Assembly (NCBI RefSeq): GCF_040834005.1
Contig: NZ_CP162129.1
Span: forward strand, 1,822,001 to 1,886,000
DNA: 64,000 bases
Source of the DNA: Paenibacillus sp. PL2-23
GTDB taxonomy: Bacteria > Bacillota > Bacilli > Paenibacillales > Paenibacillaceae
Reading direction: 5' to 3'
Below are positions 2,225-19,015 of this stretch, piece after piece; within the stretch, counting starts at the first letter, position 1; every line of letters begins with the position of its first letter. Position numbers and translations under genes: made by a program. The notes beneath the pieces were generated by a model. That model was not told where the DNA came from, did no database searches, and saw only the letters and a program-made list of their open reading frames with translations.

Positions 2225-2981
2225 TTTGACTGGTAAAGTAGCATTGGTAACAGGCGCAAGCGGCGGTATTGGCCGCGGAGTAGCCATCGAGCTGGCAAGG
2301 CAAGGAGCGAAGGTAGCCGTTAACTACCTGAGCAGCGTGCAAGGAGCAGAGGAAACGGTAGCCGCAATCCAGGCGATTGGCGGCGAAGCTGTCGCGATCC
2401 GCGCAGACGTAACGGACGTGGCGCAAATTAACGATATGGTAGCTCAGGTCGAGAAGGCCTTCGGCGCACCTATCGATATTCTTGTCAACAACGCTGGTCA
2501 TCTGGTTCAGCGGCTTGCTAATGCCGAGATGACAGAAGAGCTTTACAATAAAATTATGGACGTCAATATGAAGAGCACCGTATTCGTCAGCAAGGCGGTC
2601 ATCCCAGGGATGAAGAAGCTTGGCGGCGGACGAATCGTTAACTTGACCTCCATCGCGGCCCACAACGGCGGCGGACCAGGCGCCTCCATCTACGCGGCGA
2701 GCAAAGCTGCGGTATTGTCTTACTCCAAAGGCTTGGCTAAAGAGCTGGCTGCCGACGGCATTCTGGTTAACGCGATTTCGCCTGGCTTCATCGGCGGTAC
2801 GGCATTCCATGCAACCTTCACCCCGGATGCGGCAAGACAAGCGACCATTCAAGGTATTCCGCTGAAGAGAGAAGGCACGCCTGAGGATGTTGCGGGAGCC
2901 GTCCTGTACCTCGTATCGGAGCTTTCGTCTTATTTGACGGGAGAAACGATCGAAATCAACGGCGGAATGTTCATGAGATGA
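2214..2981 (+). CDS. SDR-family oxidoreductase (FabG-like)
   Basis: This 255-residue classical short-chain dehydrogenase has the NAD(P)-binding motif TGASGGIGRG near the N-terminus, NNAG in the middle, and catalytic residues Ser146, Tyr160 and Lys164 (YAASK). The ATG at 2214 was chosen because GGGGAGG lies 8 bases upstream; an in-frame ATG at 2175 lies inside the kinase gene and has no comparable site. It overlaps the kinase by 11 bases and the next lyase gene through ATGA. Sequence alone does not give the substrate. Sitting before two heparinase II/III-fold lyases, a reductase of the 4-deoxy-5-keto uronate released by exolytic lyases is a reasonable guess, as SDR enzymes do this in alginate pathways. 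A general sugar or polyol dehydrogenase is equally possible. Confidence 0.85.
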   Translation: MNINLTGKVALVTGASGGIGRGVAIELARQGAKVAVNYLSSVQGAEETVAAIQAIGGEAVAIRADVTDVAQINDMVAQVEKAFGAPIDILVNNAGHLVQRLANAEMTEELYNKIMDVNMKSTVFVSKAVIPGMKKLGGGRIVNLTSIAAHNGGGPGASIYAASKAAVLSYSKGLAKELAADGILVNAISPGFIGGTAFHATFTPDAARQATIQGIPLKREGTPEDVAGAVLYLVSELSSYLTGETIEINGGMFMR

Positions 2982-5071
2982 TGAATTTACAAGGGCAAAC
3001 CAAAGGACAGGCAGGACAACAAGCTACACTAAACCGGCTGAAGAAGGAATTGGATCAGGCGATGGCGTGCGAGGCTTCCATTCCTATGGAGCCAGGCGGC
3101 TGGTGGCATCAATATGTATGTCCCACCCATCATACAGAGCTGCTGTTTGACGAGCTTCGCGAGGATGACGGCCGCTACCACTGTCCATATGGCTGCGTGC
3201 TGGAGGGGGAGCCGTATCATGGCGCATGGCTGGTGTATCGTCACCAGCTATGGGCTAGACGCTCGCTGAAGGCGGCTGCGGTATACGCCGCAACGAAGGA
3301 GCTTGCATACGGGAGCTATGGGCGCGATATTATTAGCGCTTATGCCAAGCAGTTTCCCCTGTATCCCGTTCATCCCGATGCGCAGCCTTGGATGCTGAAG
3401 GGCCGCGCCTTCCATCAGGCGCTGACCGAGGCGATCTGGGCAACCACGCTTCTCCAGGCTTATCTGCTGCTGCAGGATTCGGGACTAGCGTTCGGGGAAG
3501 CGCAAGCGGATATTACACAATTTATCAGCATGCTGGAGAGCAGCATGGAGCAATATCATCATATTCTGACGATCGAAAGAGACCAGCCTGAGAATAACTA
3601 CACAGCCTGGCTGAATGCGGCGTTAAGCTGCGTATACGCGGCCAAGCAGGACCACGCGAAGCTTGATAGTCTGCTTGAGCGCAAGGGCGGCATCCGGAAC
3701 CATCTGGAAATCGCGATTTTGAACGATGGTCTGGAATTCGAAGGCAGTGTCTATTATCACGTTTTTGTGCTTCGCGCTTATTTGATAACGGTGGAGATGC
3801 TGAAGCGCTTCGACATCGACGGCTTCGAGATCAAGGCGGAGGGCTCGCGTCATATCGAAGGCATGCTGGATGTTCTGATCCGCCTGGCCGAGGAGGATGG
3901 CCGTCTTCCAGCGACACATGATGGACCGTATGGAAGAATGCCTTATACGCTTGAGATCATTGAAGTGTTCGAGAAGGGCTTGGCGAGATATCAAAAACCT
4001 GAATATTGGAAATTATTGAACTATTATTATGAAACAATGGGGCAGGGGGACAGTGAGGCGCTTCAATCATCGGAGCCGTGGGCCTATCGAAACGCTGGTC
4101 TCGAAGCGCTGCTGTACCGTCAGTGGACAGGCGAGGAGATCAGCCTTGAGGATCCCCCAGCCGCTTCCTCCGCTCTGCTTCCGGACAGCGGGTTTGCCTG
4201 GCTGAGACAGGCCGGCAATCCTCTTACAGCCATGGTGGATTTCGGTCCGCATGGCGGCTCGCATGGCCACTTCGACAAGCTGAATGTCATGCTTAGCTTG
4301 AATGGCAAGCCTGTTTCACCAGACAGAGGAACCGTTCCTTATGGATCGGTGCTCAAGAAGAGCTGGTATCCTGCTACCACGTGCCATAACACGGTTAGTG
4401 TAAACGGTCAGTCTCAGCAAGAAGCAGAGGGATGCTGCCTGTCCTTTGTGGAAGAGAAGGCCTATACGGCTATGACGATGTCTGTGGACGGCGCTGTACC
4501 TGGAGCGACTCTTGTCCGCCATCTGCTTGTGGGCGCAGATTATATCGTGGATTGGTACCAGATTGGACTGGCTGAGCCCGGCGAGATTGACTGGTGGTTC
4601 CACTTCATCGGCGAACCGTCGGTGGAGGGCTGGGACTTCAACGCGACTCCGGCCGCTCTGGGCCAGGACAACGGCTACGAATATGTGCGCGCGATCGCGA
4701 AGTGGAGCAAGTCGTCTTCTGTGTCAGCGAATGAGGACATCATGGCCCGTGTGACCATTACAGGGCTGGAAGGCGGCAATAGCCTGTCCTCCGCGGTTGC
4801 CCTCTCGGAGAATGCGGAAGCCTATTTGGTGGAATCCCCCGGACTTGCGGATGACCCCAGTGTCATGATGAAGGGTGTTCTCGTCCGGACAGCGGGAGCT
4901 AGTGCCGATGTGGCAGCCGTATATGCCGCTGGCGACAAGGAGCTGGACGTTCGTCTCCAGCCTCTGGATGAGAGCGGAGCAAGCGCCGAGAAGAAGCTTA
5001 CCGTGCGCATTGGCAATGAGTTGATCAGCTATCAATTAACCGCAGATGGAATCAGGGAGATGAGCATATGA
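2978..5071 (+). CDS. Heparinase II/III-family polysaccharide lyase
   Basis: This 697-residue protein has an N-terminal alpha-helical toroid-like part (about 1-390), which includes an NNYTAWLNAAL stretch typical of this fold. It is followed by a heparinase II/III-like beta-sandwich domain recognisable by GPHGGSHGHFDKLNVML and ATTCHNTVSVNGQ. Such enzymes cleave uronic-acid-containing glycans by beta-elimination. No signal peptide is visible, so it probably acts on imported oligosaccharides in the cytoplasm. Its ATG overlaps the stop of the SDR gene and its stop overlaps the next ATG, indicating translational coupling. The exact PL family (PL12, 15, 17, 21 or a newer one) cannot be set by eye. 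Substrate is unknown. Confidence 0.85.
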   Translation: MMNLQGQTKGQAGQQATLNRLKKELDQAMACEASIPMEPGGWWHQYVCPTHHTELLFDELREDDGRYHCPYGCVLEGEPYHGAWLVYRHQLWARRSLKAAAVYAATKELAYGSYGRDIISAYAKQFPLYPVHPDAQPWMLKGRAFHQALTEAIWATTLLQAYLLLQDSGLAFGEAQADITQFISMLESSMEQYHHILTIERDQPENNYTAWLNAALSCVYAAKQDHAKLDSLLERKGGIRNHLEIAILNDGLEFEGSVYYHVFVLRAYLITVEMLKRFDIDGFEIKAEGSRHIEGMLDVLIRLAEEDGRLPATHDGPYGRMPYTLEIIEVFEKGLARYQKPEYWKLLNYYYETMGQGDSEALQSSEPWAYRNAGLEALLYRQWTGEEISLEDPPAASSALLPDSGFAWLRQAGNPLTAMVDFGPHGGSHGHFDKLNVMLSLNGKPVSPDRGTVPYGSVLKKSWYPATTCHNTVSVNGQSQQEAEGCCLSFVEEKAYTAMTMSVDGAVPGATLVRHLLVGADYIVDWYQIGLAEPGEIDWWFHFIGEPSVEGWDFNATPAALGQDNGYEYVRAIAKWSKSSSVSANEDIMARVTITGLEGGNSLSSAVALSENAEAYLVESPGLADDPSVMMKGVLVRTAGASADVAAVYAAGDKELDVRLQPLDESGASAEKKLTVRIGNELISYQLTADGIREMSI

Positions 5072-7443
5072 ATACCCTCAAGCTATTTGAACCGCAAAGC
5101 GGCATATTGTCTGTCCCATATGAACCGAACGATCAAAGCAAGCTGCTGGAGAATCCGCCTCGCTTCACGTGGATGCCCGCGCTCGCGGAAGGCGATTGTT
5201 ATGCGCTGCAGTACTCCAGCTCGCCCGACTTCAAGACGGGGGATACCGTTACGGTTCGCAATATCCCGTACAACCTGTATACGCCGTCCGAAGCGCTGGA
5301 GCCCGGCTCCTATTATTGGCGTTACGCGCTGGAGGGCGGACGCCCGGCTTCCAGTCGCAGCGGCTCTCAGGCATGCAGCGTATCCAAAACCGTTGGCGGA
5401 GACCTGGATGGGTCAATCGGCAGCAGCTGGAGCGTGGTAAGAAGCTTTCAAGTACCGGAAGGTTTGCCTGAAACGCCGCTTCCTGATCGAGACGGCCGCT
5501 ATAGCTCCACCATCGCGACGCATCCACGTCTTTGGCTGAATCAAGACGGACTTCAGAGCCTTCGAGAGCGTATCGCGGCAGACCCCGCTTATGCGGGCTG
5601 GGACGTATTCATGGAGCGTTCCGTCCAGCCCTGGCTGGAGCGCGAGCTGATCGCCGAGCCGGCTCCATATCCCGATAACAAGCGTGTGGCTGCACTATGG
5701 CGCCGCATGTACATGGATTGCCAGGAGACGCTGTATGCGATTCGCCATTTGAGTGTTGCCGGTGTGGTGCTGAAGGACGAGACGATCTTGGAGGCGGCGA
5801 AGAAGTGGCTGCTGCATACCGCCTCGTGGAATGCTGAAGGCACGACGTCGCGCGATTATAACGACGAATCCTCCTTCCGGATCGCGGGCGCGCTTGCGTG
5901 GGGCTACGACTGGCTGCACGATGTGCTGAATGAGGAGGAGCGGAAGGCTGTGCGTGAAGCGCTGCTGGAGCGCGCGCGACAGGTTGCGTTCCATGTCATC
6001 GACCGCTCCCGCATTCATCAGGTGCCGTTCGACAGTCATGCCGTTCGTTCGCTTTCTTCGGTATTGGTGCCTGCAGCCATCGCTTTGCTGCATGAAGAGC
6101 CGGAAGCGCAGGAATGGCTGGACTATACGCTGGAGTATTACGCTTGCCTGTATTCGCCATGGGGCGGAGAGGACGGCGGCTGGGCGGAAGGTCCTATGTA
6201 CTGGACGACGGGTATGGCCTACTTGATCGATGCGCTGAACCTGGTTCGCAATTACTGCGGCATCGACATGTATAAGCGGCCGTTCTTCTCGAAGACGGGA
6301 GATTTCCCGCTGTACTGCTACAGCCCGGATACAACAAGAGCAAGCTTCGGCGATCAGTCCTCGCTGGGAGAGCGTCCCATTCTGAAGACGGGCTACAACA
6401 TCCGTCAGTTCGCCGGCATTACCGGCAACGGCCTGTATCAGTGGTATTATGAGCAGACGCTGGACAACGATCCCGACCCGGACTCCAAGTTCTATAACTA
6501 TGGCTGGTGGGACTTCCGCTTCGACAGCGTCATGTTCCGCCATGATTATCCCGAGGTAGCGCCGGTTATCCCGGATGAGAGCGTCATTGAGCCTGTGAAG
6601 TGGTTCCGCGATATCGGCTGGGTCGCGATGCATCACCGCATGCATGAGCCTTCTGAGCATGTTATGCTGCTGGCGAAGAGCAGCCCATACGGCTCCATCA
6701 GCCACAGCCACGGCGATCAGAATGGCTTCCTCATTCACGCGTTCGGCGAGCCGCTGGCGATCGAGAGCGGCTATTATGTAGCGTTCGGCAGCACGATGCA
6801 CAGAAATTGGCGAAGGCAGACCAGTTCCACCAATGCGCTGCTTATTGACGGACAAGGGCAGTATGCTGGAACAAACAAGGTGCTCGCCATGGAAGCGGCC
6901 GGGGTTGTGCAGGAAGCATGGCACAAGGACGGAATCAGCTATTGCAGAAGCGACGCAACGGCAGCTTACAATGAGACGGTGCCGTATGTGAAGCGCTGCA
7001 TGCGCGAGATTTATTTTATCGACCAATCCTATTTCGTGATCGTGGATTATGTGGACCTGGAGCAGAAGGGCAAGGTGGAATGGCTGCTGCATACGATGAA
7101 CCAAATGACATTGTCCTCCAATGCGTTCCTTGTCAATGGAACGAAGGCGGATATGGACGTTCGGTTCGTATACAGCTCCTCTGGCAGCCTGTCGCTTCGC
7201 CAGCATGACGAGTTCACCGATGTGGAGCCTTCCGAATATGAGGGCCTTCCGAAGCAGTGGCATCTGCATGCCGAGACGAAGGAAGCGCGCAGCCATAGGC
7301 TTGTGTCGCTGCTTGTCCCAATGAAGAAGGGCGACTCCAAGTTCGTCTCGCACTTCATGGACGATCAGGACCACGGCGTGCATCTGTACTTCACGAACGA
7401 AGCAGGCAAGACACGCAAGATTGAGGTTGCGAAGGCTTATTAA
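5068..7443 (+). CDS. DUF4962 + heparinase II/III protein, PL15-like exolyase candidate
   Basis: This protein has 791 residues. The N-terminal ~140 form a fibronectin-like DUF4962 module (ENPPRFTWMPA near 30, SYYWRYALEGG near 90). A helical toroid domain follows, then a heparinase II/III sandwich with the His-rich signature SYGSISHSHGDQNGFLIHAF that is probably active-site. Domain order and length resemble PL15 exo-oligoalginate and heparan exolyases, about 780 residues long. No signal peptide is present, implying cytoplasmic cleavage of imported oligomers to monomers. It is the last gene of the overlapping unit and is followed by a strong terminator. With the adjacent lyase it gives two different uronate-cleaving enzymes. 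A long antisense frame across it is a codon-bias shadow. Confidence 0.87.
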   Translation: MNTLKLFEPQSGILSVPYEPNDQSKLLENPPRFTWMPALAEGDCYALQYSSSPDFKTGDTVTVRNIPYNLYTPSEALEPGSYYWRYALEGGRPASSRSGSQACSVSKTVGGDLDGSIGSSWSVVRSFQVPEGLPETPLPDRDGRYSSTIATHPRLWLNQDGLQSLRERIAADPAYAGWDVFMERSVQPWLERELIAEPAPYPDNKRVAALWRRMYMDCQETLYAIRHLSVAGVVLKDETILEAAKKWLLHTASWNAEGTTSRDYNDESSFRIAGALAWGYDWLHDVLNEEERKAVREALLERARQVAFHVIDRSRIHQVPFDSHAVRSLSSVLVPAAIALLHEEPEAQEWLDYTLEYYACLYSPWGGEDGGWAEGPMYWTTGMAYLIDALNLVRNYCGIDMYKRPFFSKTGDFPLYCYSPDTTRASFGDQSSLGERPILKTGYNIRQFAGITGNGLYQWYYEQTLDNDPDPDSKFYNYGWWDFRFDSVMFRHDYPEVAPVIPDESVIEPVKWFRDIGWVAMHHRMHEPSEHVMLLAKSSPYGSISHSHGDQNGFLIHAFGEPLAIESGYYVAFGSTMHRNWRRQTSSTNALLIDGQGQYAGTNKVLAMEAAGVVQEAWHKDGISYCRSDATAAYNETVPYVKRCMREIYFIDQSYFVIVDYVDLEQKGKVEWLLHTMNQMTLSSNAFLVNGTKADMDVRFVYSSSGSLSLRQHDEFTDVEPSEYEGLPKQWHLHAETKEARSHRLVSLLVPMKKGDSKFVSHFMDDQDHGVHLYFTNEAGKTRKIEVAKAY

Positions 7444-7459
7444 TAGATGAATGGATCGG

Positions 7460-7492
7460 CAGGCTGTCTGGAGCATTCCAGGCAGCCTGTTT
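7460..7492 (+). terminator. Intrinsic terminator of the lyase operon
   Basis: A 13-bp stem, CAGGCTGTCTGGA with TCCAGGCAGCCTG and one G-U pair, closes a GCAT loop and runs into TTTGGTTT. It lies 16 bases past the stop of the DUF4962 lyase. Confidence 0.85.
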
Positions 7493-7630: not shown

Positions 7631-7661
7631 GATGCAATCCTACAATTAAGAGGTGAAGGTT

Positions 7662-9128
7662 ATGATGACAGGGACAACAGGCAATACAACCTATTATCGA
7701 CTTTATATAGACGGACAATGGATGGATTCGGCCTCCGGGCGCTTGACTGAGGTGCTGAATCCTGCCAATGAAGAAGTGATTGGACATGTAAGCGATGCGG
7801 ATCCGGAGGATGTGCAGAAAGCGCTGCACTCCTCGGAGAAAGCTCAGCGCTCGTGGAAGCTTCTGCCCGCTGTTGAGCGGGCACGGTATTTGGTCAAGCT
7901 GGTGGACCGCATCCAAGAGGAGCGGGAGCATTTCGCCCGGCTGCTTGTGCTTGAGCAAGGCAAGACCTATCGCGAGGCGCTTGGCGAAGTCGACGATACG
8001 ATGGCTTATTTCATGTACGCGGCGGAATCGGCGAACCGTCTGAAGGGTGATGTGCTGCCGGCTAACCGTCAGGGCGAGATGCTGATGATTCAGAAGGTGC
8101 CGTATGGCGTCACTGTAGGGCTGTGTGCATGGAACTATCCCCTTGCGCTCATTGGCCGCAAGCTTGGTCCGGCGCTGGTGACAGGGAATACGATGATTAT
8201 TAAGCCGCATGAGCTCACACCTCTTGCATCTGCAGAGCTGTTCCGCCTTATTGACGAGGTTGGCTTCCCGCCTGGGGTAGCCAATCTGGTTACGGGTACA
8301 GGTGTGGAGGTCGGGCAGGCGCTGGTTAGCAGTCCTATTACGAAGCTAGTGACCGTTACGGGCAGTGTCAGAGCGGGTCAGGCGATCTACAAGGCGGCGT
8401 CGGACAACATTACGGCGTTATCCCTGGAGCTGGGCGGCAAAGCCCCGTTTGTTGTGCTGAAGGACGCTGATGTGGATCAAGCGGTGGAAGCGGCAGTTGG
8501 CGCGCGCTTCGCGAACTGCGGGCAGGTGTGCATCTGCAATGAGATGGTGCTTGTGCATGAGAGCATTGCCGATGCATTTACGGAGAAGCTGCTGGAGCGA
8601 GTGAAGTCTGTTAAGCTGGGCGATCCCTTCGACGAGTCAGTGACGATGGGACCGAAGGCGAACGGACGGGATCTGGAGAAGATTGATGCTATCGTGCAGG
8701 AGACGATCCGACAAGGCGCTACTCTGGCTGCGGGCGGCAAGCGTCCAACAGGAGACGAGTTCCAGAAGGGATACTGGTACGAGCCGACGGTACTAACGAA
8801 TGTTACGCCTGATATGGCTGCAGCACGAGAAGAGATCTTTGGACCGGTCCTGCCGATTGTTCGGATCGGAAGCTTCGAGGAAGCGGTGAGCATCATTAAT
8901 GCCAGCGAGCTTGGCTTATCGGCTTATCTGTACACCAATGATTATCGCAAGCTGATGCAGGCAATCCAGGTGCTGGAGGTTGGCACGGTATTCCTGAACC
9001 AAGGCATGTCGGGCTGCATGCAGGGCCATCACAGCGGCCATAAGCTGAGCGGTATTGGCGGCGAGGATGGCGAATACGGCATTGAGGGCTACCTCCAAAA
9101 GCGAACTGTCTACTTGAATTATGCTTAA
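7662..9128 (+). CDS. AldA-like (lact)aldehyde dehydrogenase
   Basis: This NAD(P)-dependent aldehyde dehydrogenase of 488 residues has general-base Glu256 in LELGGKAP, nucleophile Cys290 in CGQVCICNE, and a C-terminal segment (MQGHHSGHKLSGIGG then YLQKRTVYL) closely resembling E. coli AldA. AldA oxidises L-lactaldehyde to L-lactate and glycolaldehyde to glycolate, the shared last step of L-rhamnose and L-fucose breakdown; that fits the rhamnosidases further along. The ATG at 7662 was chosen over an in-frame GTG at 7653 because AGAGGTG lies just upstream of the ATG. It is a single-gene unit with its own activator-type promoter and a strong terminator. Other aldehyde substrates, such as uronate semialdehydes, are possible. 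Confidence 0.9.
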   Translation: MMTGTTGNTTYYRLYIDGQWMDSASGRLTEVLNPANEEVIGHVSDADPEDVQKALHSSEKAQRSWKLLPAVERARYLVKLVDRIQEEREHFARLLVLEQGKTYREALGEVDDTMAYFMYAAESANRLKGDVLPANRQGEMLMIQKVPYGVTVGLCAWNYPLALIGRKLGPALVTGNTMIIKPHELTPLASAELFRLIDEVGFPPGVANLVTGTGVEVGQALVSSPITKLVTVTGSVRAGQAIYKAASDNITALSLELGGKAPFVVLKDADVDQAVEAAVGARFANCGQVCICNEMVLVHESIADAFTEKLLERVKSVKLGDPFDESVTMGPKANGRDLEKIDAIVQETIRQGATLAAGGKRPTGDEFQKGYWYEPTVLTNVTPDMAAAREEIFGPVLPIVRIGSFEEAVSIINASELGLSAYLYTNDYRKLMQAIQVLEVGTVFLNQGMSGCMQGHHSGHKLSGIGGEDGEYGIEGYLQKRTVYLNYA

Positions 9129-9143: not shown

Positions 9144-9197
9144 CAAGAAAGAGCAGCGGGGCGGGAAGTTTAAGTCCTCGCTGCTCTTTCTTGTATT
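9144..9197 (+). terminator. Intrinsic terminator after the aldehyde dehydrogenase
   Basis: A perfect 15-bp stem, CAAGAAAGAGCAGCG (9144-9158) with its complement at 9179-9193, has a 20-base loop and lies 15 bases after the stop codon. The tail is only weakly T-rich. Confidence 0.75.
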
Positions 9198-9285: not shown

Positions 9286-9321
9286 GGAGGAGCAGATGAA
9301 TCGGAAAGGGGTTAACAAGGA

Positions 9322-12300
9322 ATGAAGCGACACAGTTTGATGATTCTGGTCTTCCTCATCATGATGGGAGCGTTCTCCTCGCAGGCGTATGGCATGTCCT
9401 CCAAGCACTGGGCGGATGGCACAATTCAGGCTTGGGTGCAGGCGGGATATGTCGAGGCGGCATCAGAAGAGGTAAAAAATCCGAATCGCGCTCTCTCTCG
9501 CGAGGATGCGGCAAAGCTGATTGGGAGCTCCATCGGCTGGGAAGCCATGGATGCTTCGAGACTGTCGAATGCGGGAGCAGCGGCATGGGCTGTTCAAGCG
9601 TCCCAAGGCAAGCCTATTGATCAGGCCAATAAAGGAGTTACTCGAGAGGAAGCCGTCATTATCGCTTCTGCATTCATAAGCGATGATGCTGCAGGAAGCG
9701 TAGAGCTGGACCGGATTTTCCGGGATATTGCCGGTATGAGCGCTGAAGGGAAGGCGGCGCTTAAGGCCGTATATGAGGCTGGAGTGTTCGTAGGCAACGG
9801 GAGCAAGCTGCGCCCTCAAGCGAAAATTACGTTCGCAGAGCTGGTGACGGCGCTTGACCGTGTCATCTCCTATCGTTATGGATTCCCTTCTCTTGATTTC
9901 GAGAATGGTGCGATTCCAGACTTTGTAACGACAGGAGATTCCACGATTGAAGTTGTCCACAACGAGGCAACGAACTCCAAGGCGTTGAAGGTCGTCTACG
10001 GCGCGGCGGACTTCCCGACTGTCAAATTCACGGCGACTACGCCTTGGCAATTCGGCAGCAGCAAAGCCTTGTCCTTCGAGGTCACGAATCCGACGGACAA
10101 GGACATCACCTTCTACCTGCGAATGGATGATGACAAAAGCGCGGACGGCGTGGCGCATTCCACTGTAAGCGCTGCCGTTGCGAAAGCAAACAGTACACAA
10201 AAATATTTTCTCAGCATGGGCTCGGAAGCGCTGGATCTCGGCATGCGGTTTCTGCCGCCCAATCCTGCCGGCAGCCAGCTTGGCTACGGCTGGGGAGAGA
10301 AGGGGCTGGACAGCAGCCATATCGTGGAATTCCAGCTGTGGCAAATGTATACGAAGCAGGAATCCACTCTCCTATTCGATAACATTGCCGTAATCGGCGA
10401 TCCCAATACGGATCTCAGCTACATGGACGACCTGGTGGATGGTTATGGCCAATACAGGGGCCTGGACTGGGAGGGCAAGGTACATACCGATGGGGATTTC
10501 CTTGCTGACAAGAAGGAAGAGGCTGCTGCGCTCGCCAGCGCCAAGCCGTTGGAAACGAGCAAATATGGCGGTTGGCTGAACGGACCGAAGCTTGAGGCTA
10601 CCGGGCACTTCCGTGTGGCGAAGCATGAAGGTAAGTGGACGCTGGTGGATCCTGAAGGCTACTTGTTCTTCTCCAATGGTCTTGATATCGTTCGACTGGA
10701 TGATATGAATACCTGGATCTCAGGCCGGGAAAATATGTTCACGGAGCTCCCCTCCAAGGATGGAGAGCTGGGCGAGCATTACACTTATACAACCATAGTA
10801 GGGGCTCCTCCACTGGGGCAAACAGAGGGCTGGCTGTTCAACCATTACCAGGCCAATCTGGAGCGCAAATACGGACAGGACTACGTGAAGGCATGGAAGG
10901 ACATCTCTGTGGATCGCTTCAAGAGCTGGGGCTTCAGCTCGCTCGGTAACTGGTCGGACCCGGCATTATTTTTCGGGAAGGGCGATGAGCATGGTATCGC
11001 TTATGTTGCCAATGGCTGGACGCATTGGGGACAGCATGCCACCATTCCAAGCGGAGGCGGCTGGGCGCCGGTAGCAGATCCATTCGATCCGGCATTTAAG
11101 ACAAGCGTGGACGACATGCTGGACGAACAAATATTGGCGTATGGCGTTGAAGATGACAAGTTTATGATTGGGGTCTACATCGATAACGAGATCGCTTGGG
11201 GCAATCCCGCCAATACGGGAAGCAAGTATGCGCTGATTAGCAACATTATGGCCATGGACAGCTCAGCTAAGAGCAGCTATGCCAAACGCACAATGATTGA
11301 CCACCTGAGGGCTGTTTATAAAAACAAAATTGAAAGTCTGAACAGCCAATGGGGCACCAGCTTCGCTTCGTTTGACGCTCTTGGCAAGCCTTATCAGCCG
11401 GCAGAGCTGTCCGAGGGCATGCTGCCTGACTATTCGGCCATGCTGAGTCTTCTGGCGGATGAATACTTCCGCATTGTGGATGAAGCGGTGAGCGCGAAGC
11501 TTCCCGATACCCTTTATCTGGGCTCGAGATTTGCGGAGTGGGGCACAAGCGAAGAGGTGCAGAAGGCAGCGGCGAAGTATGTGGACGTCATCAGCTTCAA
11601 TGTGTATAAAGAGGATGTGGAAGGCGAAAACTGGATGCATCTTGAGGAGCTCGATATGCCGGCGATTATCGGTGAATTTGCTTTCGCTTCGGATGACAGA
11701 GGCATGTTCGGAACGGGGCCAAACGCGGATACGTCGGCTGTGGATCAAGAGAATCGCGGCGAGAAGTATGTTCATTATATGGAGACTGTACTGAACAATC
11801 CTTATTTTGTCGGTGCGCATTGGTTCCAATATGTGGATCAGCCGCTGCTTGGACGCGCATGGGACGGGGAAAATTATAACCTAGGTTTTGTGGATGTAGC
11901 CGATGTGCCTTACGAGGAAATGGTCAGCGCTGCAAAGGATGTGCATGCGAGAGCATATGACATCCGCTTTCTTGGCAAGGGCACGGGTACAGGAGGCGGC
12001 CAGCCAGGCAAGGAGTGGCTGATGTCCTTTGAGTCGAACGAGGATTTGTCCATCGTTACAGCCTACAAAACAGCCGTTGTTCAGTATGGAGCCGCTGGCG
12101 CAACGGATGGCAAACGGGCGATGAAGGTTAGCGTAGGTACGCTAGACGCGGATTACTCCGGAGTGGAGATTAAGCCGGCAGCCCCATGGCACCTGGGGAG
12201 CAAGCCGCTCGTGGTCGCCGATGTGACCAATCCCAATGGGCTGCCGATCCAGCTTCGCGCGAATGTAACGGATAAGAAGGGCGCGCTTCGTACCTATTAT

Positions 12301-12513
12301 TTTGCCATTGGGGCCAAGGAATCCCGCACGATTTCGATAGCCCAGTTCAAGGCATCCGACCCTGTATGGGGGGAGCAAGAGGGCTTCTGGGGAGCGGAAG
12401 CGACGGGGCTCGACGCTTCGGGAATCGCCTCCATTCATCTGTATCTGTGGGAGGATGCGCCGGAGAGCGGTGATTCGTTTATTATCGATAACCTTCGCTT
12501 GTCACAGAAGTAG
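9322..12513 (+). CDS. SLH-anchored secreted GH50 agarase-like glycosidase
   Basis: This is a multidomain surface enzyme of 1063 residues. It has a signal peptide (about 1-24), three S-layer homology repeats (about 28-190) that anchor it to cell-wall polymer, and a beta-sandwich likely to bind carbohydrate (about 200-350). A GH50-type TIM barrel follows (about 355-885), with acid/base candidate Glu623 in YIDNEIAWG and nucleophile candidate Glu785 in IIGEFAFASDDRGMF. After a Gly/Thr linker near 888 comes a second sandwich to the end. Characterised GH50 enzymes are beta-agarases. It is the only clearly secreted glycosidase in the window, so it probably starts polymer breakdown. No companion GH117 or GH2 agar-pathway enzyme is visible, so its true substrate is open. 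Confidence 0.86.
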   Translation: MKRHSLMILVFLIMMGAFSSQAYGMSSKHWADGTIQAWVQAGYVEAASEEVKNPNRALSREDAAKLIGSSIGWEAMDASRLSNAGAAAWAVQASQGKPIDQANKGVTREEAVIIASAFISDDAAGSVELDRIFRDIAGMSAEGKAALKAVYEAGVFVGNGSKLRPQAKITFAELVTALDRVISYRYGFPSLDFENGAIPDFVTTGDSTIEVVHNEATNSKALKVVYGAADFPTVKFTATTPWQFGSSKALSFEVTNPTDKDITFYLRMDDDKSADGVAHSTVSAAVAKANSTQKYFLSMGSEALDLGMRFLPPNPAGSQLGYGWGEKGLDSSHIVEFQLWQMYTKQESTLLFDNIAVIGDPNTDLSYMDDLVDGYGQYRGLDWEGKVHTDGDFLADKKEEAAALASAKPLETSKYGGWLNGPKLEATGHFRVAKHEGKWTLVDPEGYLFFSNGLDIVRLDDMNTWISGRENMFTELPSKDGELGEHYTYTTIVGAPPLGQTEGWLFNHYQANLERKYGQDYVKAWKDISVDRFKSWGFSSLGNWSDPALFFGKGDEHGIAYVANGWTHWGQHATIPSGGGWAPVADPFDPAFKTSVDDMLDEQILAYGVEDDKFMIGVYIDNEIAWGNPANTGSKYALISNIMAMDSSAKSSYAKRTMIDHLRAVYKNKIESLNSQWGTSFASFDALGKPYQPAELSEGMLPDYSAMLSLLADEYFRIVDEAVSAKLPDTLYLGSRFAEWGTSEEVQKAAAKYVDVISFNVYKEDVEGENWMHLEELDMPAIIGEFAFASDDRGMFGTGPNADTSAVDQENRGEKYVHYMETVLNNPYFVGAHWFQYVDQPLLGRAWDGENYNLGFVDVADVPYEEMVSAAKDVHARAYDIRFLGKGTGTGGGQPGKEWLMSFESNEDLSIVTAYKTAVVQYGAAGATDGKRAMKVSVGTLDADYSGVEIKPAAPWHLGSKPLVVADVTNPNGLPIQLRANVTDKKGALRTYYFAIGAKESRTISIAQFKASDPVWGEQEGFWGAEATGLDASGIASIHLYLWEDAPESGDSFIIDNLRLSQK

Positions 12514-12529: not shown

Positions 12530-12566
12530 GAGCACTTTGTTTCCAATTGGAAACGGGTGCTCTTTT
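12530..12566 (+). terminator. Intrinsic terminator after the GH50 gene
   Basis: GAGCAC pairs with GTGCTC around an inner GTTTCC/GGAAAC stem, and the hairpin ends in TTTT. It lies 17 bases past the GH50 stop and separates it from the kinase unit. Confidence 0.8.
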
Positions 12567-12592: not shown

Positions 12593-12627
12593 AAGAGGAC
12601 GTGATACTGGGAAGGAGAGGTGGAGCA

Positions 12628-14445
12628 TTGCGGATCTTGTATGCTATAAGCCGATACATCGGCAAGTCCCTGTATCGCAAAATATTATTGTCTTATTTGA
12701 TTATTATCGCTTTAATTGTATTCGTGCTCCTGTTCGACTTCTATTTCCGAACGGCTAATGACTTGCGGGCACAGGCAGTAGATAGTCACCTTCGCCTGAC
12801 GCAGCAATCCGCTTCCACGCTGAACGCGAATATGACGAACGTCAAAAGCTTTGCCTGGAACTACTTTGGAGACTTCGACTTTCATCAGTTTGTGCGCGGT
12901 ATGGGCACAGATCCAGAGGGACAAAGCTCCTACCGCGGCAAAATATCCAATTTTGTATACAATCATCCCATTGTATCGAATGTGGTGATCTCGCAGCTTG
13001 ACGGCTTCGCTATGCGGGTAGGCGGTCTGGTATCCACCCTGATTGCCCCGAGTGAAATGCAGCGCTTGACGGATGTCGCGATTGAAGCCAATGGCAAAGG
13101 CTTGTGGCTGCCTACGGATATGTACAATCCCAGTGCGTCAGGACAGCAGGTCGGTTACACGTTGTCGTACGTCCAAGCGATTAGACAAATTACCTTGACA
13201 TCGCCAGGTCCCATTATTGGTGTGATGCATTTTACGCTGTCATCGGAATCGCTGGAGCAGTGGCTGGCGGAAAGCGAGGGGAGCCGAGAGGGCAGAACCT
13301 ATCTGGTGGAAAAGGATTCTGGCACCGTCGTGTATTCCAGGAATGCTGGTGAGCGGGGAAAGCGTATCTTGACAGCCGAAGAGCTGCTGATGGTTGGCAG
13401 CCAGAGCAAAGGCCACTATTACCGTTCCAGCTCAGGAGAAAACCAATTGATCGCATATGACAGTCTGGGGCATACGGGCTGGCTTGTCGTTACGGAGGTG
13501 CCTACTCGGGTACTGACGGAGTCTGCCGACAATTTCACGAAGCGGACGATCTGGATTGGCGTGTTCACCCTGCTGTTCTCCATGCTGCTGGCGGGATTTA
13601 TTTCGTCCCGAACCATTACGCCGCTTAAGCTGCTTAGCAAAGGCATGAAAGCGATTGAGAAGGGCAATTATTCCGTCGTGCTTCCCGTACGTACCGAGGA
13701 TGAGATCGGGTATCTGAGCAAATCCTTCAATCGTATGACCAGGGAGATCAACCGTCTGATCAGCAAGGTATATGAATCGGAAATAGTGAAAAAAAATGCG
13801 GAAATCAAATCGCTGCAATCGCAGATCAATCCCCATTTCCTGTACAACACCTTAGGCATTATCGATAGTATCTCCTCGCTGCACGGGGACGAACGAGTAT
13901 CTCTGATCAGCCGTTCGCTGGCCAAGATGTTCCGCTATAATATAAGCGGCAATGATGTGTCCAAGCTGGATGCGGAATTTCAGCAAATCAGGCTCTATTT
14001 GTCCATACAGAAAATCCGGTTCGACAGCAGGCTGGACTACACCATTTATTTGGAGCCGGGTCTGGAGCAGGTGCCGATCCCAAAGCTTCTGTTCCAGCCG
14101 CTAGTGGAGAACAGCGTCAATCATGGAATCAGCCATAGCATTGATGGCGGGATTGTCCGAATTGAAGCGATTTCTCTGAGTCAGGACGAGCTTCAGGTGA
14201 AAATATGGAATAATGGATTGGTCATTGATGAGGAGCGGCAGCAGTGGCTGAGGGCGCTGCTGCAGCTGGAGGATGCTCCTGCAGGGCTTGAACATCAACA
14301 GGCTTCTATTGGCCTTCACAATGTGCAATCCCGTATCCGCATGTTATATGGTTCGGAATGCGGCATTACGTTCAACAGCGACGAGCAATATGGGACAACC
14401 TTTTCCATTACGATCAAGACCTATTTGCCCGACCAGGAGGCTTAA
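12628..14445 (+). CDS. YesM-type sensor histidine kinase
   Basis: This is a 605-residue membrane kinase. TM1 lies at about 18-40, then an extracytoplasmic dCache-like sensor, TM2 at about 308-328, HAMP, phosphoacceptor His403 in QINPHFLYNTLG, and a HATPase domain to the end. The TTG at 12628 was chosen because GAAGGAGAGG lies 7 bases upstream; the longer frame from a GTG at 12601 would start before that site. The response regulator gene begins 6 bases after its stop and a binding-protein gene follows that, so the three are co-transcribed. It probably senses, directly or through that lipoprotein, the oligosaccharide handled by the flanking GH50 enzyme and importer. Confidence 0.92.
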   Translation: MRILYAISRYIGKSLYRKILLSYLIIIALIVFVLLFDFYFRTANDLRAQAVDSHLRLTQQSASTLNANMTNVKSFAWNYFGDFDFHQFVRGMGTDPEGQSSYRGKISNFVYNHPIVSNVVISQLDGFAMRVGGLVSTLIAPSEMQRLTDVAIEANGKGLWLPTDMYNPSASGQQVGYTLSYVQAIRQITLTSPGPIIGVMHFTLSSESLEQWLAESEGSREGRTYLVEKDSGTVVYSRNAGERGKRILTAEELLMVGSQSKGHYYRSSSGENQLIAYDSLGHTGWLVVTEVPTRVLTESADNFTKRTIWIGVFTLLFSMLLAGFISSRTITPLKLLSKGMKAIEKGNYSVVLPVRTEDEIGYLSKSFNRMTREINRLISKVYESEIVKKNAEIKSLQSQINPHFLYNTLGIIDSISSLHGDERVSLISRSLAKMFRYNISGNDVSKLDAEFQQIRLYLSIQKIRFDSRLDYTIYLEPGLEQVPIPKLLFQPLVENSVNHGISHSIDGGIVRIEAISLSQDELQVKIWNNGLVIDEERQQWLRALLQLEDAPAGLEHQQASIGLHNVQSRIRMLYGSECGITFNSDEQYGTTFSITIKTYLPDQEA

Positions 14446-14450
14446 ACGAT

Positions 14451-16073
14451 ATGAGAATTATGGTGTTGGATGACGAGCCCATTATTCGACAAGGCATCAT
14501 CCATAAGATTCGTCAAACCGGTCTGCCTGTAGAGGTCGTAGCGGAAGCGGGGGACGGGCTCAAGGGGCTGGAGCTGATGAAGACAGCGAAGCCGGAGCTG
14601 ATTGTAACGGATATTCATATGCCCGGCATGAACGGGCTGGAATTTATCCGACACGCGTTGGAGCTGGATGCCCGGGTTAAGCTGGTCATTGTAACCGGCT
14701 ATGATCAATTTGATTATGCCAGACAAGCGATCAAATACGGAGTCAGCAATTATTTGGTGAAGCCGCTGGAGGACGATGAGCTGTATGCAACGTTGATGGA
14801 GCTGTTGGAGCGCAGAGAGGCGGAGCAGCAGACGGATCAGATGATTCAGGAGCTGAAGAGCGTGGCCGAAACAAGCCAGGAGGCTTCCCGTCAGCAGGTG
14901 CTTACGCAATTTCTGCAGGAGGAGGACTTCGCGGAGGCCAGCAGCGAGCTGGATGAGCTTGCGAAGCATGGAGCTGCCTTTACGGCGGTTGTCCTCCAAT
15001 TGGAGCCGTTCAAGGTGCCTCATGGCTCCTTTGGTCCAGGTGAGGAGGAGCTGCTCTGGTTCGCGATCAAAAATATTGTAACGGAGCGCTTCTTGTCCAA
15101 TGCCATCAAAGGTATTCTCGTGCACCATTCACTGCGGCGCTTCGAGCTGGTATATGTGCTTGGACTGCAGAAGGGGCAGGACAGCGCTGGAGTGACCTAC
15201 ACGCTGGAAGCGATTTCGTTCGGCATACGGAAGTATCTGAAGCTGGGTGTCACGATAGGCGTAGGGCCTTATCAGACTCAAATGGCCAAGGTGCAAGAGA
15301 GCTACCGGGAAGCGAAGCAGATCGCCAGGAACGCGATCCTTCATGGAGGGAATCGGATCTATCAGGCCCAGGGCGCAGCGAATGGGGGGCAAGAGGCGCA
15401 ACGGAAGTCCTTTATCGGCCAAGAGGATGTCAAGCTCCTGGAGGATTGGCTGGGCAAGTGGGAGAAGGACAAGGTTCACAAGTGGATCGAGCGGCGGCTA
15501 GGCGCCATTGTGCAGGAGCCCGCCTCCAGCTATGTGATGGTGGAATGGTTCTGTGTGGATTTCTATCTGTTCCTCAACAAATATTGGATCACCCATGCCA
15601 CGGACTCGCAGTGGGCGATTGGAGAGCTGACGGATCTGCAGCGAGAGCTGCAGCAAGCGACAGCATGGCATGAGATTGTCGAGCAGATGAAGCGGCTCGT
15701 TACGAATATGATTGGCTTATTGTCCAAATCCAATAATATTGAAGGAAAAGAAATTATGGAGGCAGTTCGGCTCTACTTGGAGCGCCATTACGCAGAGCCT
15801 ATCCAGCTGGCGATGATTGCGGAACGGTTCTTTATTCATCCCAATTACTTCTCCAAGCGCTTTAAGGAGAAATACGGGGAATCCTTTGTTGATTTCTTGA
15901 ATGGGCTTCGGATGAAGGAAGCGGCGCGGCTGCTGGTGGAGACCGATATGAAGATACGCGATATCAGCGAGAGGGTCGGCTTCGACGATGCGGCTTATTT
16001 CGGAAGCGTATTCCGCAAGCGCTTTGGCGTTACTCCAGGCCAATATAGGGATAAGAGCGCTCCGCATGCGTAG
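14451..16073 (+). CDS. YesN-type response regulator, receiver + AraC
   Basis: This 540-residue transcription activator has an N-terminal receiver domain with acidic pair Asp7/Asp8, phosphoacceptor Asp54 in TDIHMPGMNG, Thr82 and Lys104. A middle region of about 300 residues follows, typical of this family. The C-terminal AraC/XylS double helix-turn-helix has MIAERFFIHPNYFSKRF and ends in FRKRFGVTPGQYRD. The ATG at 14451 follows AGGAGG by 10 bases, while an in-frame ATG at 14358 lies inside the kinase gene. It is the best candidate to bind the direct repeats upstream of the dehydrogenase, GH50 and importer genes, though the regulator at the window start is the alternative. Confidence 0.93.
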   Translation: MRIMVLDDEPIIRQGIIHKIRQTGLPVEVVAEAGDGLKGLELMKTAKPELIVTDIHMPGMNGLEFIRHALELDARVKLVIVTGYDQFDYARQAIKYGVSNYLVKPLEDDELYATLMELLERREAEQQTDQMIQELKSVAETSQEASRQQVLTQFLQEEDFAEASSELDELAKHGAAFTAVVLQLEPFKVPHGSFGPGEEELLWFAIKNIVTERFLSNAIKGILVHHSLRRFELVYVLGLQKGQDSAGVTYTLEAISFGIRKYLKLGVTIGVGPYQTQMAKVQESYREAKQIARNAILHGGNRIYQAQGAANGGQEAQRKSFIGQEDVKLLEDWLGKWEKDKVHKWIERRLGAIVQEPASSYVMVEWFCVDFYLFLNKYWITHATDSQWAIGELTDLQRELQQATAWHEIVEQMKRLVTNMIGLLSKSNNIEGKEIMEAVRLYLERHYAEPIQLAMIAERFFIHPNYFSKRFKEKYGESFVDFLNGLRMKEAARLLVETDMKIRDISERVGFDDAAYFGSVFRKRFGVTPGQYRDKSAPHA

Positions 16074-16089
16074 AAAGGAGGGGAGAAGG

Positions 16090-17451
16090 ATGGTTGCAGG
16101 TATTGTGACAAAAGCGACATTAGGGGCGGGCGCTGTCCTATGGTTCCTGTTGTCTTTGACCGCGTGCTCCGGAGATAACCATCTGAAGCTGGAAGACGGC
16201 TTGACGGACCCTGTTGTCGAAATTGTTGTCTGGGACAAGCCATTCGCGGGTTCGGCAGAGAAGCCGTATTACGAGCGCATGTTTCAGGAATTCGAGCAGG
16301 CCTATCCCCATATCCGGGTGATTCATATGGAGGCGGCCTTCCAGAAGGAGCGCGAGCAGTTTATGACAGCTGTCGCAGGGGGCGAGCAGCCGGATTTGTA
16401 CAATGCCGCATTTCCCGATATGGAGTCGTACATTGATCAGGGCATTCCTGCCGATATTACAGAGATGTGGACACAATATCCGGACAGCGCCGACTATTCC
16501 TCCATTGCTATGGCGACAGCGGAGAAGGATGGACGAATCTATGGTATTCCTAACTTCATGTATGTGACAGCCTTGGCGTATAACAAACGGATTTTTGAGG
16601 AGAATGGCATCAACCCGGAGGAAGCTTTCCTGAATTGGGACTCCTTCGCAGCGGCGGCGGAGCAAGTGACCGACCGCTCCAGCAATCAATATGGCTATAC
16701 CATTCTGGGAACCGAGTGGGCGGATTGGTTCTATGAATATTATGTGTGGCAAGCTGGAGGCGATCTTACCAGCAAGAATCCTGATGGAACCGTACAGTTG
16801 ACCTTTAATTCCAATGCCGCGGTTCAGGCGCTGAGCTATTATCAGGATTTGAAGTTCCGCTATGGCGTGACGCAGCCCAACACGCTGCAAAGTCTGGATG
16901 ACAACAAAAAAGACTTCTACGCTGGGCGCGCCGCGACGATGATTACAGCCTCCAACTGGTTCGGGGAAATGCTGGAATCGGGTGTTGACATGGATGATAT
17001 CGGAGTGACGACGTTTCCGAAGGGTCCCGCTGGCGTGTCACTTGCGCAGGTGGGCGGAGGTATCTGGATTTTGAACCCGAACGCGACGGAAGAGAAGCAG
17101 CATGCAGCCTTCACCTACGCGACCTTCATGACCTCCAAATACGCTTTGGAGCAGATGCTTCGATTCCAGAAGGAGCAAGGCATGCTGCCCAATCTGCTGT
17201 CGGTGCGGGAGGACGTTGATCCCATCGCTTACGCGGAAGGGATGCCGGAGGAGCTTGTCCGCAGTATTCAGCGGGCAGCCGAGGGGAGTCGGCTTGAATA
17301 TTTCCTCAAGTCCCGTCTAAGCCCTTATGTCTCTGCTGCGGTTCAGGAGGTTCTGCTGAATGAAAACACAAAGCCATATGATGCCCTCACCCGAGCGCAG
17401 GAGAAAGCTCAGCGCGAGGTCATTGACACTTATAATATGGAGTTCGACTAA
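16090..17451 (+). CDS. Family 1 solute-binding lipoprotein without its own permeases
   Basis: This 453-residue lipoprotein has a signal sequence and lipobox LTAC with lipidated Cys26. It belongs to the sugar-binding family 1 proteins and is clearly paralogous to the binding protein that starts at 17627; both share PDMESYIDQGI, YGIPNFMYVT and similar C-terminal segments. It follows the kinase and regulator genes by 17 bases, with GGAGG upstream of the ATG, and is followed by a terminator rather than permease genes. It may therefore present ligand to the sensor kinase as part of a three-component system, or share the permeases encoded at 19079-21266. Function as a sugar-binding protein is secure; the signalling role is inferred. 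Confidence 0.85.
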   Translation: MVAGIVTKATLGAGAVLWFLLSLTACSGDNHLKLEDGLTDPVVEIVVWDKPFAGSAEKPYYERMFQEFEQAYPHIRVIHMEAAFQKEREQFMTAVAGGEQPDLYNAAFPDMESYIDQGIPADITEMWTQYPDSADYSSIAMATAEKDGRIYGIPNFMYVTALAYNKRIFEENGINPEEAFLNWDSFAAAAEQVTDRSSNQYGYTILGTEWADWFYEYYVWQAGGDLTSKNPDGTVQLTFNSNAAVQALSYYQDLKFRYGVTQPNTLQSLDDNKKDFYAGRAATMITASNWFGEMLESGVDMDDIGVTTFPKGPAGVSLAQVGGGIWILNPNATEEKQHAAFTYATFMTSKYALEQMLRFQKEQGMLPNLLSVREDVDPIAYAEGMPEELVRSIQRAAEGSRLEYFLKSRLSPYVSAAVQEVLLNENTKPYDALTRAQEKAQREVIDTYNMEFD

Positions 17452-17500: not shown

Positions 17501-17566
17501 GGTTAAGATATTCGTATGAACCGCTTAATATATTCTTACAGCTCACGCCCCCATTCCTTCTACAAT
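17501..17566 (+). promoter_or_regulatory. Promoter with AraC-type direct repeats upstream of the importer operon
   Basis: GGTTAAGATATTCGTA starts at 17501 and GCTTAATATATTCTTA at 17523, 22 bases apart. The second ends at 17538, exactly 22 bases before a -10 box TACAAT at 17561-17566. This is the clearest of the three copies of this arrangement in the window and implies activation by an AraC-type regulator. Confidence 0.68.
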
Positions 17567-17575
17567 AAGAAGTGT

Positions 17576-17600
17576 AAAGCAAAGCAAAGCAAAGCTAAGC
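17576..17600 (+). repeat. Pentanucleotide tandem repeat in the leader of the binding-protein gene
   Basis: Four perfect copies of AAAGC are followed by TAAGC. They lie about 10 bases after the -10 box, so they are within the 5' leader of the transcript. A related stretch AAAGCAAAGCTAA recurs at the start of the coding region near 17636. Confidence 0.75.
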
Positions 17601-17626
17601 ACATCACTCGAATGGGGGAACTATCA

Positions 17627-19015
17627 GTGAAAAAGAAAGCAAAGCTAATGGCTGTTCTAGCCCTGACTCTCGTTGTATCGCTGTTCATGGCAGCATGCTC
17701 CGGCAACAACGGCGGCAATAATGGAAGCGGCAAGGGCGGCGATTCCGCATCAGCACCGCCTGCTACGGATGAAGTGGTTGAGATTGTATCTTGGGACATG
17801 CCGCAGGACGGCGACCCCGCTAAGCCATATTGGGAGCAGGTGTTCAAGGATTTCGCCGAGAAATATCCGAACATCAAGGTTGAGCATGTGATGCAGACGC
17901 TGACCAAAGAAAGAGAGCAGTTCATGACAGCGGTTGTAGGCGGCGAGCAGCCGGATCTGTACGCGAATGCGTTCCCGGATATGGAATCCTACATCGACCA
18001 AGGCATTACGGCTGATATTACGGAGCTGTGGAACAACTACGCGGAGAAGGATATGTTCCTGCCTTCCGCTACACAAGCAGCTACAAGAGACGGCAAAATT
18101 TACGGCATTCCGAACTTCATGTATGTAACGGGACTGGCTTACAACAAACAGATGTTTGCTGACGCGGGCCTTGATCCGGCAGAAGCGCTGAAAAACTGGG
18201 AGTCCTTCGGCGAGGCAGCGCAGAAGCTGACGGATGCCTCCAAAAATCAATACGGCTATGCCTTGCTGGGCATGGACTGGGCGGACTGGTTCTTTGAATA
18301 TTATGTATGGCAAGCCGGCGGCGACCTGACCGAGCAGCAGGAAGATGGAACGGCTAAGCTGACCTTCACGTCTGAGCCTGCCGTACAAGCGCTGCAATAT
18401 TACAAGGATCTTAAATTCAAGTATCAAGCGACACAGAAGAATGTTGTTCAAAGTCTTGACGAGAACTCCAACGACTTCTACCAAGGCCGCGCAGCTTCTA
18501 TGATTGCCGCATCCAACTGGTTCGGCGGTATGGTTTCCTCGGGCATGGATATCGAAAACATTGGTTTCTCCGTACTGCCTCCGGGCCCTGGCGGCACGTC
18601 CCCAGCACAGGTGGGCGGCGCGGTGTGGATCTTTAATCCGAAGGCAACACCAGAGAAGCAGCAAGCGGCGTTCACGTACGCAACGTACCTGATGTCCAAG
18701 GAAGTACAGGATGGGTTGCTTCAGTACCAGATGGATAACGGTATCTTCCCGAACCTGTTGAATGTAAGAAGCGACGTGGATGCGTCTCAATTTGTGGAAG
18801 GCATGCCTCAAGAGCTGATCGAGAATGTGCAGGCAGCAGCTGGCGAAGGCCGTCTGGAGTACTTCCTGAAAGCACGTCTGAGCCCTTATGTGGTCAAAGC
18901 TGTTCAAGAGGTGCTCCTGGATGAGAAGGCGGATCCAATGGCGGTTATGCAGAAGGCGCAGGATCTGGCACAGCGTGAAGTCGTAGACAAATACAATCAA
19001 GAAGTTAAAAAATAA
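17627..19015 (+). CDS. Family 1 sugar-binding lipoprotein of an ABC importer
   Basis: This 462-residue lipoprotein has a lipobox MAAC, with Cys24 lipidated, and a Gly/Asn-rich tether. It is a type 1 extracellular sugar-binding protein, the substrate-capture part of the importer formed with the two permeases downstream. The GTG at 17627 follows GGGGG by 8 bases; the reading frame is open back to 17516, but that extension would place the signal peptide in the middle of the protein and begins upstream of the promoter's -10 box. It is a paralogue of the lipoprotein that ends at 17451. A large perfect hairpin follows the stop and probably sets higher levels of this protein than of the permeases. 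Confidence 0.93.
   Translation: MKKKAKLMAVLALTLVVSLFMAACSGNNGGNNGSGKGGDSASAPPATDEVVEIVSWDMPQDGDPAKPYWEQVFKDFAEKYPNIKVEHVMQTLTKEREQFMTAVVGGEQPDLYANAFPDMESYIDQGITADITELWNNYAEKDMFLPSATQAATRDGKIYGIPNFMYVTGLAYNKQMFADAGLDPAEALKNWESFGEAAQKLTDASKNQYGYALLGMDWADWFFEYYVWQAGGDLTEQQEDGTAKLTFTSEPAVQALQYYKDLKFKYQATQKNVVQSLDENSNDFYQGRAASMIAASNWFGGMVSSGMDIENIGFSVLPPGPGGTSPAQVGGAVWIFNPKATPEKQQAAFTYATYLMSKEVQDGLLQYQMDNGIFPNLLNVRSDVDASQFVEGMPQELIENVQAAAGEGRLEYFLKARLSPYVVKAVQEVLLDEKADPMAVMQKAQDLAQREVVDKYNQEVKK

Follow-up and report, generated by a model that had tools for sequence, protein, structure and literature searches.

The SLH-bearing GH50 protein P0001

In the soil Paenibacillus sp. PL2-23, whose genome consists of one contig (C1) of 5.48 Mb, we analysed a stretch of 64,000 nucleotides (C1:1822001-1886000, hereafter the window), focusing on a gene for a predicted SLH-anchored GH50 beta-agarase, P0001. 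An earlier note on this DNA had described a GH50-like enzyme with SLH repeats and two sandwich domains. This description holds: the exact open reading frame (ORF) spans positions 9322-12513 of the window (+ strand) and encodes 1063 residues. A likely Sec signal peptide, read by eye from the translation (about residues 1-24; 9322-9393), is followed on the same strand by a triple SLH region with one degenerate repeat (residues 27-185; 9400-9876), an N-terminal Agarase_CBM (residues 192-367; 9895-10422; PF17992, E=2.4e-23), the GH50 catalytic barrel (residues 405-885; 10534-11976) and a C-terminal Agarase_CBM (about residues 907-1061; 12040-12504; PF17992, E=3.5e-8). Pfam reports two SLH stretches within residues 1-193 (E=7e-12), and residues 28-182 align end to end with the triple-SLH regions of other proteins (E=9e-12). 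Domain scans found no dockerin in P0001, and no NCBIfam model matched it. The top PDB matches are the beta-agarases 4bq2, 6xj9 and 5z6p, the best being 4bq2 (Aga50D; phmmer E=1.2e-135, residues 191-465 and 469-883). The AlphaFold model (mean pLDDT 83) gave TM scores (target) of 0.81-0.87 against Aga50D (4bq2-4bq5), AgWH50C (5z6p) and PfGH50B (6xj9). A nine-codon ORF (MNRKGVNKE; window 9298-9325) with a GGAGGAG ribosome site has its TGA overlapping the ATG of the GH50 gene, and translational coupling of the two is possible.

The earlier note had left open a GH50 branch with a new substrate or an agarase in a composite locus. Alignment with Aga50D showed that the six active-site residues listed for this enzyme (PMC11079163) are all kept in P0001: N622, E623, E785, F835, R845 and E850 correspond to Aga50D N533, E534, E695, F742, R752 and E757, E623 (11188-11190, + strand) being aligned with the acid/base and E785 (11674-11676, + strand) with the nucleophile. 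The identity to the catalytic domain of Aga50D is about 46%. In the GH50 phylogeny, an analysis that the note had itself put forward, P0001 and a 97% identical P. soyae protein, its copy there, form a clade (support 100/100) with three further enzymes: a second GH50 encoded in this genome, the P. soyae copy of that enzyme and the GH50 of genome G160. This clade sits among Gram-positive and marine agarase-type GH50s, and a branch of length 1.96 (support 100/100) parts it from a distant Paenibacillaceae GH50-like group. A new substrate is thus not supported: P0001 lies inside the agarase-type GH50s with its active site kept, and agar loci elsewhere contain orthologues of most neighbours outside the alginate operon, as detailed below.

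The second GH50, found by genome scan at C1:2031696-2034371, has 891 residues and is 64% identical to P0001 over 696 residues. Published lengths, catalytic positions and primers make for a strong inference that this paralogue corresponds to AgaB-4 (Paenibacillus agarexedens, PMC5874223) and to AgaW of Cohnella sp. LGH, two assayed beta-agarases that both yield neoagarotetraose. The catalytic residues E463/E625 of the paralogue and E455/E617 of the 883-residue AgaB-4 differ by a constant offset of 8, and the mature paralogue starts with ATPFPT and ends with MDRLLVSK, while the AgaB-4 primers encode ATPFPT and MDRLLISK. CL5055, also from Cohnella sp. LGH, is an endo-beta-agarase that, like P0001, has two PF17992 domains (PMC9008576). 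As CL5055 is an agarase at 51% identity to AgaW, P0001, at 64% to the AgaB-4-like paralogue, falls within the range of assayed agarases.

Neighbouring genes and the agar region

Upstream of the GH50 gene lies a gene for an AldA-type aldehyde dehydrogenase (ALDH; 7653-9128, + strand). With the ALDH of an agar region elsewhere in the genome it shares 77% identity, against 36% for the next ALDH of the genome; across three agar loci, its identity to the ALDHs found there is 77-81%. Its best PDB matches are 6j75 and 3k2w, and a tree with long branches groups it (100/99) with GH50-linked marine ALDHs and separates it from E. coli AldA as well as from the remaining ALDHs of the genome. Because of this identity and this grouping, the enzyme is probably a 3,6-anhydro-L-galactose dehydrogenase. 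In Streptomyces coelicolor, the anhydrogalactose dehydrogenase SCO3486 has an AldA-like domain and its gene number adjoins that of the GH50 gene dagB (SCO3487) (PMC9706016). The pairing of a GH50 with an AldA-like dehydrogenase is the same here, although the Streptomyces genes form one compact cluster whereas the agar genes of our strain are divided between two regions.

On the other side of the GH50 gene, the + strand encodes a sensor histidine kinase (12601-14445), an AraC-type response regulator (14358-16073), ABC solute-binding proteins 1 (15988-17451, from the first ATG of the frame) and 2 (17516-19015), two ABC permeases (19079-19948 and 19953-21266) and a short-chain dehydrogenase/reductase (SDR) oxidoreductase (21299-22075). 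As the ORF of solute-binding protein 1 overlaps that of the regulator, its true start is probably later. Orthologues of the kinase (76% and 61% identity in genomes G160 and G421, respectively), of binding proteins 1 (74% and 60%) and 2 (86% and 76%) and of the first (90% and 84%) and second (84% and 73%) permeases sit within the agar loci of these two genomes. In G421, an orthologue of the regulator (63%) lies close to a GH50 gene, and the agar locus contains a homologue of the SDR (63%). No match to a cre-like site was found anywhere in the window.

Further upstream, PDB and structure matches define an alginate operon (2175-7443, + strand) composed of an SDR, a PL17-like lyase and a PL15 oligoalginate lyase. 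The PL15 lyase matches the oligoalginate lyase 3a0o with E=2.7e-264, the other lyase is divergent and matches PL17 structures, and the SDR is a probable uronate reductase. The neighbours are those that the earlier note had listed (heparinase-fold lyases, of which there are two, an SDR, an AldA-type ALDH and an importer), together with a two-component system. The operon ends at a terminator-like hairpin with a 15-bp stem (7458-7491, + strand; RNA fold z -5.7), and the agar loci of G160 and G421 contain no relatives of the alginate lyases and only 34-36% relatives of the operon SDR. A role of the heparinase-fold lyases in the GH50 system was rejected, since they belong to an alginate operon with its own terminator and have no relatives in the agar loci. 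The uronate/rhamnose context proposed in the note is misleading, because AldA is probably an anhydrogalactose dehydrogenase and the lyases are in a separate operon. The junction between the alginate operon and the ALDH gene is not conserved, since in P. soyae the two lie about 3.9 kb apart; the intervening segment (L029:3188-7123), absent from the window, encodes a formylglycine-generating enzyme and a ROK-type regulator and also holds two chromate-transporter-like genes. Two further terminator-like hairpins on the + strand, a strong one between ALDH and GH50 that precedes a T-rich stretch (9145-9193; RNA fold -38.6 kcal/mol, z -5.3) and one 3' of GH50 (12536-12557; z -4.3), flank the GH50 gene, which is therefore probably transcribed alone. 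These data support a composite locus, in which the alginate operon abuts an agar module (ALDH, GH50, kinase/regulator and importer), as the second suggestion of the note had it.

Neither a GH117 nor an agar-type GH2 gene is present among the window genes scanned, as noted before. GH117-like and GH2 genes do exist 130-220 kb from the GH50 gene, in a full agar/porphyran region at 1.962-2.046 Mb: the bacterium does have an agar cluster elsewhere in its genome. This cluster and the placement of P0001 among agarase-type GH50s are two of the three findings that the note had named as speaking against its idea. The region holds GH86, GH117-like and GH2 enzymes, the second GH50, a cycloisomerase-like gene, an SDR, an ALDH, a GH29 and several sulfatase-like ORFs. 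The GH86 (1852 residues) bears three C-terminal SLH and a porphyranase-type domain. One GH117 candidate (1968984-1970126) is 57% identical to ORFs of marine GH50 loci, and a more distant one (2017815) has a 3,6-anhydro-alpha-L-galactosidase as best PDB match (3e-10). The preferred cycloisomerase candidate is the enolase at 1971224-1972336, 60% identical to the enolase of a marine GH50 cluster; a second enolase, at 1989507, is galactonate-dehydratase-like and was rejected for this role. The SDR of the region shares 67-70% identity with those encoded in marine enolase-SDR-ALDH-GH50 operons. Most likely, the GH50 gene is accompanied by a relocated piece of the agar pathway of the bacterium, adjoining an unrelated alginate operon, and a view limited to one window can hide a pathway divided in this way between two regions of a chromosome.

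Elsewhere in the window (28789-61598), two GH78 rhamnosidases, two sulfatases, a GH88-type unsaturated uronyl hydrolase and an isomerase-like gene recall ulvan use; with the alginate and agar genes they would form an algal-polysaccharide island in a soil Paenibacillus. Within this part, a 417-residue ORF (31482-32735) matches no Pfam family and has a marginal PDB match (6gjf, 0.009).

Proposed function and alternative explanations

From the domains, active-site residues, phylogeny and genome context, we infer that P0001 is very probably a retaining GH50 beta-agarase that is secreted, attaches to the cell wall through its triple SLH region and cuts agarose at the surface. After secretion, the N-terminal SLH region would attach to the secondary cell-wall polymer, the two CBM-like sandwich domains would probably hold agar, and E623 and E785 would catalyse retaining hydrolysis of agarose beta-1,4 links. 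By analogy with AgaW and CL5055, an endo mode is most likely, and the main products would be neoagarotetraose and neoagarohexaose. The binding proteins and permeases encoded nearby may import these neoagaro-oligosaccharides under the control of the neighbouring kinase and regulator. Inside the cell, GH117-like and GH2 enzymes encoded in the main agar region would then cleave them, and the adjacent ALDH would presumably oxidise the released 3,6-anhydro-L-galactose.

Several observations weigh against this proposal or soften it. Agarase activity is assigned to P0001 by sequence comparison within a family that includes non-agarases. Because the distant Paenibacillaceae GH50-like group has the same six active-site residues, these cannot by themselves prove the substrate. 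An endo or exo mode cannot be read from sequence. The link to AgaB-4 draws on published numbers and primer sequences, and AgaW and CL5055 were compared by description. As regards anchoring, the SLH part of the P0001 model is of low confidence. As candidates for a wall-polymer pyruvyl transferase, the genome contains two PF04230 genes, but this evidence is unspecific, as 8 of the 14 control genomes match too.

Other explanations were weighed against the same data. P0001 could be an agarase that is exo-acting like Aga50D and mainly releases neoagarobiose. The best-matching solved structures do include exo-agarases with the same active-site set; however, the nearest counterparts with published products mainly release neoagarotetraose or are endo-type (AgaB-4, AgaW and CL5055), and the solved exo-acting GH50s fall in another branch of the tree than P0001, which leaves the exo mode unlikely, with a modest chance. 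The upstream AldA might also be an ordinary lactaldehyde dehydrogenase for rhamnose, and the GH50 a stray agarase unrelated to its neighbours. The ALDH barely passes the cut-off of the AldA-type NCBIfam model PRK10090 (505 vs 500), two GH78 rhamnosidase genes lie downstream in the window, and the hairpins on either side of the GH50 gene would suit a stray gene. Nevertheless, the close identity of the ALDH to the enzymes of three agar loci, compared with 36% or less to the other ALDHs of the genome, its position in the tree beside GH50-linked ALDHs and away from E. coli AldA, and the presence of the same AldA-type domain in SCO3486 make this explanation improbable.

We consider it highly improbable that P0001 belongs to a GH50 branch acting on another glycan such as porphyran, carrageenan, ulvan or beta-glucan. 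The statement of the earlier note that characterised GH50 enzymes are agarases is outdated, as Fsa16295Glu is a beta-1,3-glucanase and VadG925 and PaBglu50A have also been described as distinct GH50s (PMC11079163). The rhamnosidases, sulfatases and GH88-type enzyme of the window, and the GH86 with its porphyranase-type domain and the several sulfatases of the agar region, could likewise speak for a different glycan; the last two features make partly sulfated agar or porphyran plausible. Set against this are the identity to the AgaB-4-like paralogue with its 100/100 grouping and the agar-locus orthologues of the P0001 neighbours. Moreover, whereas P0001 shares about 46% identity with the Aga50D catalytic domain, the value published for Fsa16295Glu is 33%, and that enzyme is far from characterised agarases and without an annotated CBM (PMC11079163). 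P0001, compared with it by description, is unlike the GH50_3 beta-1,3-glucanase type, in view of its two CBM-like domains and its place among the agarase-type GH50s. A surface beta-agarase therefore remains our preferred assignment for P0001.

The distant GH50-like family, often of about 660 residues (e.g., L104-L130), is found in about 80 of 396 Paenibacillaceae genomes and has the motif RNEPHWAF and the GH50 catalytic residues; Agarase_CBM is absent from L104, the one member scanned. Possibly, this family is the actual GH50 group with a new substrate.

Possible display of agarases by SLH or cohesin-dockerin

The kind of enzyme, a GH50 beta-agarase, is known, but an SLH anchor has not been described for GH50 in the literature searched, and P0001 provides a case of a predicted GH50 agarase with a direct anchor. 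AgaB-4 and AgaW are of the same GH50 type, to which P0001 adds the N-terminal triple SLH region, and the text found on CL5055 mentions no SLH. Aga50D (Saccharophagus degradans) shares the N-terminal CBM and the GH50 barrel, but is exo-acting and without SLH. Aga1 (Paenibacillus sp. SSG-1, PMC5069468) is also a beta-agarase with SLH from a soil Paenibacillus. Unlike P0001, Aga1 is a distant GH86 with C-terminal SLH, a layout that resembles the 1852-residue GH86 of our strain. Two uncharacterised GH50s of the Clostridia metagenome-assembled genome SZUA-474 (L031 and L032) combine SLH, Agarase_CBM and GH50 like P0001, with about 52% identity, but differ by additional Big_2 domains.

The closest enzyme outside P. 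soyae is the GH50 of G421 (69% over 688 residues), a genome of the same order (Paenibacillales) but another family; it may be the strict orthologue of P0001 (support 81/82). This 1148-residue counterpart is 67% identical over residues 188-1062 of P0001, lacks SLH and ends in a cohesin (962-1055) and a dockerin (1088-1140). The GH86 next to it (68%) likewise ends in cohesin and dockerin, and the adjoining gene encodes a cohesin with three SLH; these genes lie inside an agar locus (L149:5804-15886). In our strain, the counterparts of both enzymes have SLH of their own. The single dockerin of this genome belongs to a 1614-residue protein of the agar region (CBM9, CBM61-like and a dextranase-like stretch), whose gene is directly followed by a cohesin-SLH gene (both within C1:2036185-2042773; L018:11185-17773), and the dockerin repeats are nearly identical between the two genomes.

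We tentatively suggest, with slightly less than even confidence, that Paenibacillales display agarases by two exchangeable routes, SLH fusion or cohesin-dockerin docking on a cohesin-SLH anchor, the latter being cellulosome-like and forming a small natural "agarosome", and that P0001 may be the SLH version of an enzyme docked in a relative. In the literature searched, cohesin-dockerin work mentioning agarases comprised an engineered display system and incidental mentions only. A natural docked system, if true, would thus be worth testing, and the related GH50 and GH86 agarases, which bear SLH in the one lineage but cohesin and dockerin in the other, offer a testable case.

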